Shown one piece after another: positions 6,308 to 54,093 of a DNA stretch of 64,000 nucleotides; position 1 is the first letter of the stretch, and every line of letters starts with the position of its first letter. The notes under the pieces were generated by a model. That model was not told the origin of the DNA, ran no database searches, and saw only the letters and a program-made list of their open reading frames with translations. The stretch spans positions 13,566,501-13,630,500 of the forward strand of contig NC_053422.1 of assembly GCF_016859285.1 (NCBI RefSeq). Reading direction: 5' to 3'. Made by a program: the position numbers and the translations under genes. The DNA is from Xiphias gladius. Its lineage: Eukaryota > Chordata > Actinopteri > Istiophoriformes > Xiphiidae.

Positions 6308-6848
6308 GTGATTGAATGGGTTTTAGAGTGTTAACTGAACCAAACCAGACATTTAATGACGGCATATTGTCACAGGCATTTATCACTGTTTTTTGATGTT
6401 TTGTAGACCAATCAATGAATTGCTAAAATATTCAGCAGAATAATCAATAATGAAAATATTCATTAGTTGCAGCCCCAATATAGATCTCTTCTGGAACATT
6501 TTCTATCTTATAACTGTGTAAACAACGATCACATCTGTTTTAACACACAGACTGCAATAACAACAATGTACTTTTAAAATTAAAGGTGAAATAAATAGCT
6601 ATTTCTATCACCAGCAAATGTACAACATGCACCGCTACCACGCTTTAAACTCCATGAATATTAATTCCAGTGTTAACTGCTTCCACAGGCTTCAAACAGA
6701 ACAAAACTCCTTCAAGACAAACACAAACAGTCTCAGATTTCTCTTCTGGTGGGGCCATCACTCTCATAATGTTCTTCCATCTGTGGAGGCAATGACATGG
6801 CCTTAGACTATGTTACAAAATCAGATGTCTAACAGTAACGAAGCACTG

Positions 6849-9800
6849 CTATAGGAACTGGTTGGTGTCAGTGAACATCCAAATCACCTGAGCAGGGTAG
6901 CACCTGCCCCTCGGGGTGAATTTCCATGATGTCACCCTCCTCAGAGATTCACAGAGGGAGGCCGATAGTTCATGAGTGTCACGCACCTGAAAAACACATA
7001 CATTATGACTTCTGTCACATGATCGACTCGAATATGTGTATTTACAGCGTAGCTGCTAACATACTTGTGTGGTGTCTTTCATCATGACATTTGAAAGTGA
7101 AAATAAAATTCATTTTTTTCACACCTTCATGCTGTTCAGACAGGCATTTCTGAAGTCCATGTTAGTGCTGCAGCTCACGATACTGATGGATGAGCTGAGA
7201 ATCACATTTACAGCTGAACGGAGCTTCTCTTGGTCCTTTTAATATCACACACAACAGCCAAACACACAATATTAGGGCGCCAATAAATACCTGATTTTAT
7301 TATTTATTTGATCTATAAAATGTCAAAATGTAATGCTGACTAATTTTCTGTCAATCAATTAGTCAAATAATTATTCCACCTACCACTATATAAAAATAGT
7401 AGGGTAGTTACTGTGTGTATGTCTTTCTCAGACTTGCCTTTCTTCTGCGATTTTGGGCTTTCAGTGTGTTCTGTAGCTCAGTCTGCAGGGCTGTTGTGAC
7501 TGCATGTCTGTTGTTGCTCAGAACATCCTCCAGGTTGTGCTCTATCAATGCCTCTGTAGCTGTGAGAGAATCACGGACATCCCAGTTACCTCTGTAGCTG
7601 CAACACTAACTTATTCTTGTATTCAGCTGTAGTAGAACAAATGAAGAGAAGCTATGTACGGCCCGGTGTTTTGTGATTCTACATGATGCAGTTGTCTCTC
7701 ACCCATAACATCAGAGAGCTGGGAGGTGAAGGGGTCACTGTGCTGCAGGAAGAGGAAAAGCAGGAGACTCTGCTGCACTGTGGGAAGACTTGATTCTTCC
7801 TCCCTGTTTTCTTGCTCTACTTTGTACACAGTGCCACCACCAAGCACAAGATCTGCGAGGATGTTAAAACATTTTTTTGCAAAACAGATCATGAGGAGGA
7901 GATGGAAGGAAAACATGATTATTAGTGAAAATATCTGTGATGATTTTAACAGTAAAAAACACTGTAAGTCTTCACTGGTTGAAGGCACACTGGTACAATC
8001 ACAACAAATGGAAAACACACCTTTGGGTTGGGCAGGTAGTTGTTATAATGGCTGATTTTAAAGTTCTAGTTTTAATAGTTTCATGCCAGAGTAAACCATA
8101 CTTCACTGATAAAAGTGTTTGTGAGAGAGTATCTTCTCTCTAACAGCCAGAGACTGGCTTTTTTTTCATATTGCATCTAGTGAATGACTAAGCTACTCGT
8201 AATTCATCTAGACCCGTGGTTTTGCTTGTGGTTCTGATGTAATGTGTAATCTAAAACGGAAAAAACTTATTACAAAACAGCAGTTTCTAAGAAATCACAG
8301 CCATGTTTTAGATTTATTGTAATATGACTTTACTACCCATGACTGCTGTACTATGTTGTATCCTATTGTCTGTGCCAGACAGTGATTATTTAGCAATGAT
8401 TAAGCTTAGTTTCCAAACTGAAGTGTCTCCTTACAGTAAATCAGTTTAACCCAAATCAGCTATCTCAAACATGATTGAGTAATCCGACTCCTTACTTAAC
8501 TGACTACCTGAAAGAAAATCTTGTGTTACTCCAGGACTAAATGAATGCTCAAATTGAGGAATAAAGACGGTTTTAATTCAGATATGCTGACTATTGTCTG
8601 GATACACATAGATTATTTGGATTATTTTAGTTAAGACTATTCACCTGCAAGGCATTTATTGACTTGGTGACTCACATTTAATAAATGAAACCAGTTTGCA
8701 TAAGAAAAATACATTTTGGGAAAAATATAATGCAGCCTGGTTTACTTTTTTGCCATGCTAGTGGCGCTGGTCTGTCGGTTGGCTGGTCCACCACTTTGGA
8801 CCTCTTTCCAGACCGAAATATCTCAACAACGATTAGATGAATTTCCATGAAATTGTGTCCGTTCATTCATCCTTCTCCAGAGTTTAAATAATCGTCTATC
8901 CATGTTTAGACTTATGGTTTTGGTGATCCCCATCTTTTCCTCTTTCCCCATTCACATTTGTGGTTCTGAGAGTAATATCTCATTAATGTTCCCCAGGGGA
9001 TGAATCCCAGTGACATTGGTGGTTCTGACTTTTCCTCTAGTTTAATATTTGGTTTTTAATGACATTTCTTGACAACTATTTGATGGATTGCCACAAAGTT
9101 TGGTACACACATTCATGTCCCCTGCAGGATGAATGTTTATATCCTTGGCTTTTCATTCAACACCATCAAGTCAAAATTTCGATTTGTGCAATACTTTGCT
9201 TTATGACCAAACACCTGCAAAACTCCACACATTCCCATAATCCAAAACTGTACTTTGTGTTTAGTGCTAATTAACAAATGTTTGCACGCTAACCTAAGAT
9301 GGTGAAGATGTTTAACATTATACCTGCTAAACATCAGCATGTTAGCATTGTCACTGTGGCGATGTAGTCATGCTGACGTGAGCATTTAGCTAAATGCACG
9401 TTCAACATTTACAATGTTTTATTTTAACAAAGGCCTTATTCTAACTAAGGCATGATGATGGTATAATTTAAGTTTTGGCAACCACAGCCAATTAGTTAAG
9501 GTCAGGGAAAGAAAATGGTCTAAGTCAAATATGACACATTTAACACTTATATCTAGCATAAAACAGGATGGGAACCAGAGCCTCCAGTGTCAAAGCCAAA
9601 CACATGGTAAACCTTGTCTCCACCCAAAATTCCACATAACAACATTCTGCTGAGTTTTCAGAAACAAATGTTTTCAATCAACATGCACCACTTGTCCATA
9701 TTATTTGCATATGAAAATAATTCACAGGAGACAGGTTTTTAAAATGCAGTGACAATCATTTCACTGCTGGATTCCAGACTTGCAATGTTATCACAAAAAA

Positions 9801-12800
9801 GGAAAGCTTGTAGTCCGTTCTCTTCAAGAGCTGTCACTTTAAGGTTTTTGTTACTGTGTTTTGTGTGTGTTCTTGTTTTTTACTACTTCCATTGTTTGGC
9901 CTTGTTTTGGTCCTCTGATTCAAATTATGGGCTTTTTGTGATTCATCAGGGTTTATATAAAGCAACTCCGCGCCACTCACAATTAAACACAGGTGGTTGA
10001 AATAAGTCTTATTCAACTCACACATCATAGTCAGGAAGTAAATATTCCAAATTTTAAGTTTTAAATTACTTCTGTATGCGTAAGGCAGGATTAACAGTCC
10101 CACACTTCTGACCTACTCCAAGTTCAACTCATACCCTGTCCAGGAAAACTGGCCCAAACAGTTCTTCTGGCAAAAAAAAACCTTAAATGTATCCTCATTC
10201 CCATCAGGGATTTCTGTTTACCTTTGAAGGAGGAGCAGTGAAGGCGATGCAGGCTCAGTTCTTGACGGTCCAGATGAACAGGGAGGTCCCGGAAGAAGGT
10301 CGAGGGGCCTGTAACGGGAACATTACTGTGGCTGTAGACCAACACCTAAACACATGTGGAGTCAAGGAAGACTAATCCTAATCAGATGCTCAAACCAAGT
10401 CCACTGAGTCAACGCGAAGGAGCAGTGGTTCTACTCTGAGTTCCCACCAGATGCCTGAGCTCCTCACGTTTCACCCTTTCTGTCAGTGAGGTGAGCCGTC
10501 CTGCGAAGTAAATTCATTTTGATTGTTGGTATCGTGATTCCAGTCTCTTGGTCTCATTACCCAAAGCCTATGACCCTAAATGAGGGCTGAAACGTAGATC
10601 GGGCCGTAAAAGAGCTGGGCCTAAAAGGTGAAGCTCCCTCTTCACTATGACCGTCGGTTACAATGTCCACATTACTGCCACATTATAGCACCAATCCGCC
10701 TGTTGATATCACACTCCATCTAAAGCTGCCAGCATGCTCTGCCACCCCTCAACAACTTTCTTATGTCGGACTGGAGGGGGGGGGCTGTGTCCGTTCATTT
10801 CTGTAACTTTCTTAAACTCACATTCTGACTGCTGTGTGGAGGTAAAAAGTATACAACAATCTGTGGCACTTTCAGTGTAACTGACCATGTGCAACGCTGT
10901 GAATGTCTTCCAGGAGAGACTGTCTGAAAATGTGCACAGTAATCCCCATATTTAAAACAATACAGCATCTCCCCTTTCTCTATGGCAGCAAGCTTTTCAC
11001 CGTGCCTTTGTGTTTGGCTGTTCACAACAACTACAATGTTTCCAACAAGGTTGGACAACATTTCTGACAAAGTAGTTCTTTCTAAGCATAACCCAACCCT
11101 GACCCTCACTCATGAAAAAAATTGAGATCCCATAATACTTGACTTCTCTTGGGGCAGTAACTCACTCTGAATCCAAAGGGAGCAATCCACTGTTCTCTGG
11201 CAGAGGACAAGGGCGCTGGCCCTAAGCCCTGTTGTCACACTCAGCTGCAAAAGGACCCAGTGTGCACTGGAGTCTTAGGAGGCAAGCTGAACCACAGCCA
11301 TCTGCAAAAAGCAGAGACACAATCCAGGGGCCACTATATTGGACACTGAATACAACTACGCCTAAAGATTCTGTTCCTGGCGATCACAACCAGAATTATG
11401 AGAAAATCAGTAAAGGATATTTGTATGTCAGTGAGCTGGGTTGCCAGATTGGGGTACTGCAGCACACAAGGGCTAAGGAGTGTGACAGGCTGGATGCTGA
11501 GCTCCCCGTAAAGGCCCTGATCCATGACTTGTGGTGGGATACTGAGCGGCAACCTGGCTCCAAGGACCGGGTGTCCTCCCTGACACCAGCATCCTTTCTT
11601 CACACACTCTGGAGGCCTTTGAACCCAAGGAGAGAGAATCATTTTCTGCAGACAAAAGCACGCATACAGAATGTACAGCAGTATTTCTGACATGTCGTTG
11701 TAACATGGATAAATGAGGATAAAAACAACTTGTTTTCATTACACATCTGTAATTTTCCTCCTAAAAGTAAGACAACATTGATCCACACAAACAACTATAA
11801 ATTTAATTAATATAAAAAGCATTACTGACAGTGTATTACAGGTGACATCCAAGATCAGTGGTGGGTTGGCTGCCTGTGTAACTTTACTTTTGATTTTCAC
11901 TCTGCAAGAATATGAACACAATGTTAGTACTTCATAAAAACAGAGGCTGACATTCCCATTGCTAATTTAAATTTATGACCTACCCTATACCCGTTGGGAT
12001 TAACTGGAGTAGTGAGTTCTTGTCTTTGTGGTCGTTATTATGATGGAACTCCCAAAGCCACAAATGTTGCAAGCCACTATTAAAATTTGACCTACTCTAA
12101 TTCAGTCTGTGTGTGTGAGGCTAATTTTTTCTATAATATTTTTAAATCACTTAATAAAACAAAATAGCTAAATACTGTGTAATGCTCAGTGACTGCATAA
12201 GTCACTGAATATAGCATATGTCACATATGAATTTAATATAAAGACACAATTGAATTAACCCACTCTATTTTGAGATCATTGAACATAAGACAGGCTCTCT
12301 ACAAAGCTTCAACATTTGCCTGCATTGTTGCAGTCATACCTGAATTCTTGGTGGAGGGTCTGCTTGTTGAATTTGAATTTGAGGTGGATTTTAATCTGTG
12401 AAAAAAAAAAAAAAAAACCCTTTTTGCTAACTACCTTCACATATGACTGTGGATAAGTAGACAGATCCTTTCATACCCCTGCATTAGCCAAGTTGAATAT
12501 GCGTAGGAATTCCTCTATATGAGATTGCCACTCTGGACTGAAAAGTCTTGCATCTTTCATCTGTACAGTGCAAAGAGATAAGCAGATAGAACGTGTCACT
12601 CACAGCCTCACTGTGATCATCTATCACTAATGACATTTGAAAGGAAAAATACTTATAAATATAAATTTTTGGTTCAATTTCAGTCTTATGTAGCTTCATT
12701 TATTTATATAAGGGTAATATCAGTCCAGTTATGAAGACCAGTAAAGTGATCCCACACAGATTCTGTTTCTTAGGACAATCTTAGACTAATAAGTTCCTAT

Positions 12801-14854
12801 AGTGCTTAAAAAGGTTAAGACAATGCTCAGCCGATAACATCCGTAGTTATTATTCAGGCCAATAAGACGCTGGTGAACGATCACCGTTGTTTTTACCTGA
12901 AAGGAAAGGAGTAATCTGAGGGAACCATACAGATCAGTGAAGGCACACAGCTCCTCAGGGTCAGGCTCGGGACATGACCAAGCACAGGGAAACATACTCT
13001 CCTTTAAATCTGTGAGGACGAATGTAGCAAAAAGAGGTTATATAGTATACAAAAGATGAAAATGTGTGCATATGTTGGGTGTGCGTACATACCAGGTTGG
13101 AGTGCTTTTTTTTTAATCCCCGTGCACCAGGGCCCAGCAGCTGCAACTGCACAACAAATGGGTAAGCTTTTTCAGCACCGTGTAGTTTGTTACCGTAAGC
13201 CAAACGTATTTGTTTTATCTGGTCCGAACAGCTGCTGGTAGCAGTCACTTTCCTGTTAATTTTCTTTACAATTTGGGGGATGGAGTTAATGTCAGATCTC
13301 AAGTTTCCATCCAATCTTCAACTATTTCCCACAGTACAGGCCTTATCAGTACAAATAAATATGTACTCATGCCTCAAAGTGACCAATTAATCATGTCGGT
13401 TTTTTTTTTGTCAGATTTCTCTGAAATTAAGCATCTGATAGACATGTGTCTTCTCCATACCTGGCTAATTTTTTACCTGAGGTGTACACCGATGATAGGC
13501 AAACAGAGGCCCGTGGGCCAACTCCGGCCCACCAACAAAAATATTTGGCCCCTGACAAAAGCTGATGATTTCCCTTTTATAGTTTGAATCCAAACAAAAC
13601 ATAATCTTTCATTGATTTGCAATAGGTAATAATGTATTTACAAGGCTTATGTAAATGTAAATAAATATGACCTTGTACCATGTAATAAAAATCTGATTTG
13701 TGTATCAAACTAAACTTAAATAGGTGGCAGTCGTACATGCTAATGTTGTTTTTCTGAGGCAAAAACAGGCTCAACAGTACTTAAATCAACCAAAAACGAA
13801 TGCGTGTGGATAACTTAATCAATTACATTTCAAGTCGTCGAGCGCAACACAAAGCATAAATGTGCCAAAATGAGTCACTTTTTCCGGAATGAGTATTAAA
13901 TAAGATGCGGTAACTGTTGGCACAAACTTACTGATGGGGGGAAAAAAATGCATCTGACCGCAGATGCAATCCCAAAACAAATGGTTTTATAAATCCGTTT
14001 TTATCTTAAATGCAATAAAATACTCAAAAGTTGAATGCTTTGAAGAAACACAGCGCTCACACTGATCAATGCTAAAAGGAAAGTCTAACATGGTTGAACC
14101 TCACTGCTGACTGCTGTGCACCACATTAGACACTGAACCAATTTATAATGGGACTTATTCCACAAGGCGTTGAAACGTTACACTGGCTTTTTGCCAGTAA
14201 GAAATGTCTACGTACTGGTAGTACTCTCTAAATCTGCTTTAAAATAAGGCAACTCGGTGTATCGGTGTTTGGGTGCCTTTTTCCACCCAAGAGAGATATT
14301 TACCCAATTTAAAAAAAAAAAAAAAAAAAAAATAGTGGTAGTCAAATACGTAGCTTCTTCCCTGTCGGAATAAACTTGCTCCGCTCGTACACATTTGATA
14401 GATATTTCTACCTGACACCATGGGATACCCCGCCGTCCGCTGGTCGTTTTATCCTGGAGGGGGGGGGGGGGGGGCAGCTCACCTTGTAAGAACGTGGTGA
14501 AGAGCTGAGGCTTACCGGTGCAGTTCAGACTTTGAACAGACGCTCTGGTTTCGGTCCACAGAAGCACCAAAAGCCCCCCCGCAGCCTTCAAACCACGCTG
14601 TCGTCGTTGCTTCCCCATTAGCATGACCAGCCTCAACACCTGAGGTGGTAATTCAGCAAAGACACAAACGCCTGGCTTAGCATGCTAACGCTACATATGT
14701 TACGCTAGTTAGCTTCAAACCCGATATGGCCGGTCTGTGTATTATACACAACCAAGAACCGCGTTTCACTGCCTACTAAAACAACAATTTTACACGTGTT
14801 TCTAGGTAGAATTGGTCTAATTCAAGCCATTACCTGCTGTATTTCTCGGAGCAT
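6849..14854 (-). CDS. top6bl: Probable meiotic topoisomerase VI subunit B-like protein (TOP6BL/C11orf80 family), tentative
   Basis: Eleven exons on the minus strand with matching phases: 14854-14834, 14639-14516, 13009-12897, 12395-12340, 11901-11826, 11645-11421, 10345-10222, 7852-7703, 7559-7438, 7235-7125, 6986-6849 (stop TAG 6849-6851); 419 aa. The protein starts MLREIQQVLRLVMLMGKQ, contains GSLRLLLSFQIKIHLKF, GGHPVLGARLPLSIPP, YPNLATQLTDIQ joined to VLVYSHSNVPVTGPSTFF, and LLLFLFLQHSDPF, and ends VIWMFTDTNQFL. There is no signal peptide or clear membrane segment. The strand-rich middle and helical C-terminal half would fit a TopoVI-B transducer-like fold. In that family the protein works with SPO11 to form meiotic double-strand breaks, and its C-terminus binds REC114. 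The name rests on recalled resemblance and on the neighbour pola2 (both on 11q13 in human), so the exon model is firmer than the identity. Odd points: intron 10346-11420 looks U12-type AT-AG, and intron 7236-7437 is GC-AG. A recognisable ATP-binding GHKL region is not evident. Confidence 0.55.
8740..9410. mobile_element. Dispersed repeat, copy 1 (family shared with 25080-25680)
   Basis: It lies in the 2.4-kb intron of the top6bl-like gene. The stretch is a diverged duplicate of 25080-25680 in the same orientation. Shared landmarks in order are CCTCTTTCCAGAC, GACATTTGTGGTT(C/T)T, TATGACCAAA, CATTCCCAT, TTAGTGCTAATT, and a terminal block of AACATTATACCTGC, AAACATCAGCAT and GCATTTAGCT. No coding capacity is seen. 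The family is not assigned; this is a sequence-level match between two loci. Confidence 0.75.
10346..11420 (-). other. U12-type AT-AG intron in the top6bl-like gene
   Basis: On the minus strand the exon ends GAC ATA CAA at 11421 and the intron opens ATATCCTTT (11420-11412), a perfect U12 5' splice site of the AT class. Near the 3' end lies TTCCTTGAC, one base from the U12 branch consensus TTCCTTAAC. The branch A sits about 16 nt before TTTAG and the next exon GTG TTG GTC. Phase is 0 on both sides. An AC-ending acceptor nearer the branch point would shift the frame to an early stop. Confidence 0.75.
13485..13562. mobile_element. Possible hAT-type element fragment
   Basis: A short stretch with GGCAAACAGAGGCCCGTGGG followed by CCAACTCCGGCCCACC resembles the paired GGCCC/GGGCC terminal region of hAT (Charlie-like) elements. 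It lies in intron 2 of the top6bl-like gene. Only one end is visible, so this is tentative. Confidence 0.35.

Positions 14855-31979: not shown

Positions 31980-54093
<22,114 letters not shown>

Follow-up and report, generated by a model that had tools for sequence, protein, structure and literature searches.

The AT-AN minor introns are a published class that includes introns with AT-AG ends (PMC8280824). In the parts of that paper drawn on here, 92% of the A-type introns of human cells responded to the depletion of CENATAC, and AT-AC introns make up 84% of the class. The AT-AG combination is called disfavoured in the passages used of a review, where it is considered possibly a poorly spliced intermediate between AT-AC and GT-AG U12 introns (PMC3584512). 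Signs of A-to-I editing have been described, in the cited portion of a third report, for two human AT-AG introns with U12-like signals, those of NUP210 and CRYZL1 (PMC4176328).

The current analysis supports a probable intron of this kind in a top6bl-like gene on the minus strand of the window, the window being the whole stretch of 64,000 nucleotides that was analysed. The eighth intron of the gene (11420-10346, minus strand) is very probably a U12-type (minor-spliceosome) intron that belongs to the AT-AN class and has AT-AG ends. This reading fits because the donor, the branch site, the frame, the contrast with 12 other introns of the gene, the snRNA genes and CENATAC all agree. AT-AG U12 introns are already published, and intron 8 would add one more member to a rare but known group. 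In the one open-access library searched, no paper reporting it in C11orf80 was found.

The top6bl-like gene and its protein family

The gene extends over 6733-14854 of the minus strand and has been modelled with 14 exons, which on joining give one open frame of 468 amino acids. Residues 173-449 match the Pfam family DUF4554 with 112.8 bits (E 2.8e-32; cut-off 27), a family which we take to be that of C11orf80/TOP6BL. Exon 8 (11421-11645, 225 nt, phase 0 to phase 0) has an open frame and by itself scores 26.6 bits to DUF4554, against the cut-off of 27, while exon 9 (10222-10345, 124 nt, starting in phase 0) together with exon 10 scores 17.8 bits. Exons 8-10 joined score 46.7 bits, slightly more than the sum of the two separate pieces. 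The 13 introns of the model comprise 11 with GT-AG ends, intron 11 with GC-AG and intron 8 with AT-AG. The placement of exons 1-3 and the donor of exon 7 are less certain, because the intron 7 donor is weak (0.7) and the Pfam match does not reach the exons ahead of residue 173. The apparent GC-AG intron 11 (7437-7236, minus strand) has AAG before and GCAAGT after its donor junction, and a poor pyrimidine tract.

The protein contains the segment LCESLRRVTSW, in which, on comparison by eye, L, L, V and W are spaced like W562, V566, L569 and W572 of the C-terminal REC114-binding helix of mouse TOPOVIBL, as given in the passages cited of PMC9671922. The gene probably encodes a TOP6BL-like meiotic DNA-break protein, for which binding to SPO11 is predicted. 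A phmmer search of the protein against PDB sequences gave no match up to an E-value of 10. Relatives were also sought in viral contigs (three pattern matches, no relative) and in the set genome_contigs (41 pattern matches, no relative), an outcome to be expected for an animal gene. A search of the same genome with exon 8 DNA for a second copy of the gene matched the locus in the window alone.

Minor-spliceosome signals and their background

Intron 8 is 1075 nt long. Read on the minus strand, exon 8 ends with GACATACAA at 11421 and is followed from 11420 by the 5' splice site ATATCCTTT (11420-11412). The consensus letters used for scoring are RTATCCTTT for the U12 donor and TTCCTTRAC for the U12 branch site. 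The donor agrees with this consensus at 9/9 positions, so that its description as a perfect AT-class minor-spliceosome site in the sequence-only reading holds, and the branch site TTCCTTGAC (10369-10361, minus strand, with the branch A at 10362) is likewise exact at 9/9. The 3' end of the intron is TCCACATGTGTTTAG, closing in TTTAG with the final AG at 10347-10346, and exon 9 starts with GTGTTGGTC from 10345. The earlier placement of the branch site 16 nt before the acceptor is right if the count runs from the branch A as far as the final base of the intron, but the gap between the branch site and the exon is 15 bases. The 16 nt are somewhat long against the optimum of 11-13 nt stated in the part used of PMC3584512. 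The join of exons 8 and 9 is in phase 0 and reads LTDIQ-VLVYSHSNVPVTG within the 468-residue open frame, in agreement with the continuous protein claimed beforehand. The last 17 nt before the AG of intron 8 contain 65% pyrimidines, which is inside the range of the other introns of the gene (47-94%), so that the lack of a distinct polypyrimidine tract that marks U12-type introns is not evident here.

Exact motifs are few in the window. On scanning both strands, two exact RTATCCTTT and three exact TTCCTTRAC have been found, all on the minus strand, and the motifs of 10346-11420 form the sole ordered, same-strand exact pair of donor and branch site at most 5 kb apart. Two hundred dinucleotide-preserving shuffles gave means of 1.31 donors, 1.60 branch sites and 0.09 ordered pairs, the last figure being the expectation before any demand for an in-frame exon end at the donor and an in-frame acceptor near the branch site. 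Donors with one mismatch occur in the window at chance level (38 found, 36.25 expected) and the donor by itself is therefore no proof; the weight lies in its pairing with the branch site and in where the two are placed. The second exact ATATCCTTT (25791-25783, minus strand) has no exact branch site within 5 kb downstream, upstream stops are near in each frame, and it has been taken as a chance occurrence. The 12 other introns of the gene have donors of 3-6/9 and branch sites of 5-6/9 on the U12 counts, as compared with 9/9 and 9/9 for intron 8. On a major-type donor score, which uses approximate weights, intron 8 scores -9.0 and the other 12 introns score 0.7 to 8.9.

The adjoining POLA2 gene offers a control. 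It has a U12-like GT-AG intron (4499-4376, minus strand) with the donor GTATCCTTC and CCTTGAC shortly before the AG, and its exon join ...HSLQEL-IKAEEE... aligns gap-free at the junction with a solved DNA polymerase alpha subunit B chain (E 1.2e-42). As the join is supported by this alignment, correct reading of a U12-type intron from the present sequence is feasible. Both this intron and intron 8 have a U12-like donor and a branch motif near the end, on the same strand of the same window; the POLA2 intron ends GT-AG with a branch site of 7/9 against the consensus, whereas intron 8 has AT-AG ends and 9/9. A second donor-like ATATCCTTC is present within the POLA2 intron at 4458-4450.

Components of the minor spliceosome are encoded in the same genome, which was searched over 690.8 Mb in 1298 contigs and which, by its size and gene content, is probably that of a fish. 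U11 (104.3 bits), U12 (125 bits), U4atac (98.6 bits) and U6atac (131.4 bits) have matches above the cut-off, and a second U6atac match of 32.2 bits falls below it. CCDC84/CENATAC is represented, likewise above the cut-off, by four stretches within 4.4 kb (best E 1.2e-23). An Rfam scan of the 64,000-nt window gave no matches at the gathering score. Nucleotides 18-25 of the U12 snRNA of this genome pair 8/8 with the branch site of intron 8, with the branch A bulged, and this is the best place in U12. The corresponding pairing test carries no information for U11 and U6atac, as other places in each of these RNAs give short matches that score equally well or better. Taken with the intron contrast and the DUF4554 match (E 2.8e-32), the splice signals and the snRNA and CENATAC genes support the U12-type AT-AG intron that had been proposed for a top6bl-like gene.

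Other features of the window include a small gene at 19232-16979 (minus strand) that is rhodanese-like (TSTD-like) by eye. The frame at 21874-21089 (minus strand), open for 261 amino acids, has a signal-peptide-like start and a membrane segment; its Pfam match to DUF6121 lies below the cut-off, and by eye we presume it to be LRRN4CL-like. Several exons at 33091-51405 (plus strand) resemble a monocarboxylate-type transporter by eye, with a weak MFS_1 match, below the cut-off, in the exon 50965-51405 (plus strand). Nine open reading frames of at least 130 amino acids are listed in 20000-64000, six of which were scanned against Pfam, and nothing among them bears on intron 8.

Choice of the 3' end and competing junctions

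Ten AC and AG ends between 10361 and 10299 have been listed, each checked for frame and for distance past the branch A. Two ACs, at 10361 (1 nt beyond the branch A) and at 10356 (6 nt beyond it), run into a stop. The AG at 10346, 16 nt past the branch A, is open, and the three other listed AGs run into stops. Ending the intron at the AC of 10334 or of 10328 keeps the same open frame as the AG at 10346. The ACs at 10311 and 10299 follow the branch A by 51 and 63 nt, and from them exon 9 is open but is read in a different frame. The AG at 10346 is the single one of the ten listed ends with both an open frame and a plausible branch distance; no other of the ten that falls 6-24 nt beyond the branch A keeps the frame open.

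AT is usually paired with AC, and a U12-type AT-AC intron that truly ends at the in-frame AC of 10334 or 10328 would leave both joins open. These ACs, however, follow the branch A by 28 and 34 nt, far over the optimum of 11-13 nt in the cited part of PMC3584512. Moving the end to 10334 removes VLVY and lowers the DUF4554 score from 46.7 to 39.6 bits (-7.1), and moving it to 10328 removes VLVYSH and lowers the score to 38.2 bits (-8.5). We regard such an AT-AC intron as very improbable. Frame, branch distance and family score favour the AG at 10346, and intron 8 is therefore read as AT-AG rather than AT-AC, as had been claimed from the ending in AG. This AG is the best candidate 3' end and on these three measures the predicted class is AT-AN.

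A join by the major spliceosome has also been considered, in which GT-AG ends at 11468/10308 give the main form and the U12-like ends are skipped. This is the best-scoring phase-compatible GT-AG join found there; it is open, and the acceptor before 10308 scores 2.5 as against 1.1 before 10345. Its donor at 11468 scores 2.4, compared with 5.0-8.9 for 11 of the 12 other donors and 0.7 for that of intron 7 (all with approximate weights), the family score falls to 36.7 bits, and the exact pair of U12 donor and branch site is left without explanation. As the main form it is scarcely credible. It could exist as a by-product, since cryptic major sites are activated at A-type introns on CENATAC depletion according to the sections used of PMC8280824.

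The family profile bears on another arrangement, in which about 11 residues come from a small exon lying within 11420-10346, or from a longer exon 8 that continues beyond 11421, and the AT-AG ends are an artefact of their omission. Across the exon 8/9 junction the model falls short of the DUF4554 profile by about 11 positions: by itself exon 8 matches as far as position 119, and the match of exons 9-10 by themselves starts at position 142, with 10 residues between, so that positions 120-141 face 10 model residues and the joined piece has 151 residues over 162 positions. The frame past 11421 stays open for 28 codons into the intron before a stop. We enumerated 142 possible inner exons, of which eight passed crude site filters. 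The scoring covered five of these eight, which gave 45.3, 49.6, 40.9, 51.0 and 51.8 bits. It also covered two lengthened forms of exon 8, with 49.9 and 50.1 bits.

Some intron-derived inserts thus lift the score from 46.7 to 49.6-51.8 bits, and two intron peptides exceed their own reversed letters (51.0 against 48.1 and 51.8 against 50.4). Seven made-up or reversed fillers, a small hand-written null, nevertheless reach the same range (48.1-52.5 bits), and a filler of eleven X gives 46.8 bits. The extension of exon 8 requires a donor at 11388 scoring about 0.4. A single intron has exact U12 signals at both ends, whereas two introns would each require their own partner signals, and 10346-11420 contains no further exact U12 donors or branch sites. 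The Pfam profile gives no clear support for a small missed exon and does not decide against one, and we consider the arrangement unlikely. For the single AT-AG intron, splicing at exactly 11421/10345 with no small exon inside is predicted.

Proposed splicing and comparison with known AT-AG introns

In the proposed mechanism U11 would bind the donor ATATCCTTT and U12 would bind TTCCTTGAC with the branch A bulged, after which U6atac would take the place of U11. Beyond the branch site the AG at 10346 would be the first end that can be used, because the two ACs before it end just 1 and 6 nt after the branch A, and they break the frame as well. Splicing would then join LTDIQ to VLVYS in phase 0. 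Retention of intron 8 would add 28 codons and a stop, with loss of exons 9-14 and hence of most of the DUF4554 match; if the protein is TOP6BL, the SPO11- and REC114-binding parts would also be lost, following the domain order in the passages available of PMC9671922. Removal of intron 8 is likely to be dependent on U12 and on CENATAC. Slow, CENATAC-aided splicing would be expected of it as an AT-AN intron, on the basis of the published minor introns in the parts cited of PMC8280824, PMC3584512 and PMC4176328.

A case of AT-AG ends with exact donor and branch sites, in a gene that meiotic breaks probably require, would make a useful test of how the 3' end is chosen and of whether introns sensitive to CENATAC extend to the germ line. 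The exon 9 boundary could be misplaced by gene finders limited to GT-AG or AT-AC ends. As AT-AN introns are slow and CENATAC-dependent, a further proposal makes the AT-AG minor intron a conserved and rate-limiting step in TOP6BL, by which the minor spliceosome sets the amount of the SPO11 partner and the capacity for meiotic breaks. We hold this to be a speculative and rather improbable extension; if true, defects of the minor spliceosome would directly impair meiosis.

Folding of the donor region was considered with respect to A-to-I editing of the first A of the intron. The last 13 nt of exon 8 are able to pair inside intron 8 (11433-11344, minus strand; CACTGACATACAA with GTTGTATTCAGTG). 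The 221-nt donor region folds with z -1.63 (12 of 200 shuffles as low), and a shorter donor segment, picked after the 221-nt fold had been seen, with z -2.45 (15 of 1000 shuffles as low). However, 119 of 680 windows of the top6bl-like gene fold as low, and in the context of exon 8, intron and exon 9 the pairing probability of the last exon base is 0.13. The suggestion of an editing hairpin has been dropped, the statistics being unconvincing.

The human A-type introns were measured by RNA-seq (PMC8280824), whereas intron 8 is predicted from sequence, in a gene that is unnamed in the passages drawn on from that source. The NUP210 and CRYZL1 introns show signs of A-to-I editing to GT-AG in the cited portion of PMC4176328, whereas the donor hairpin of intron 8 is unconvincing in folding. 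With the human A-type introns, as described in the parts used of PMC8280824, intron 8 shares a U12 donor starting with AT and an end other than AC, and with those of NUP210 and CRYZL1, as far as described in the same portion of PMC4176328, it shares AT-AG ends and U12-like signals.
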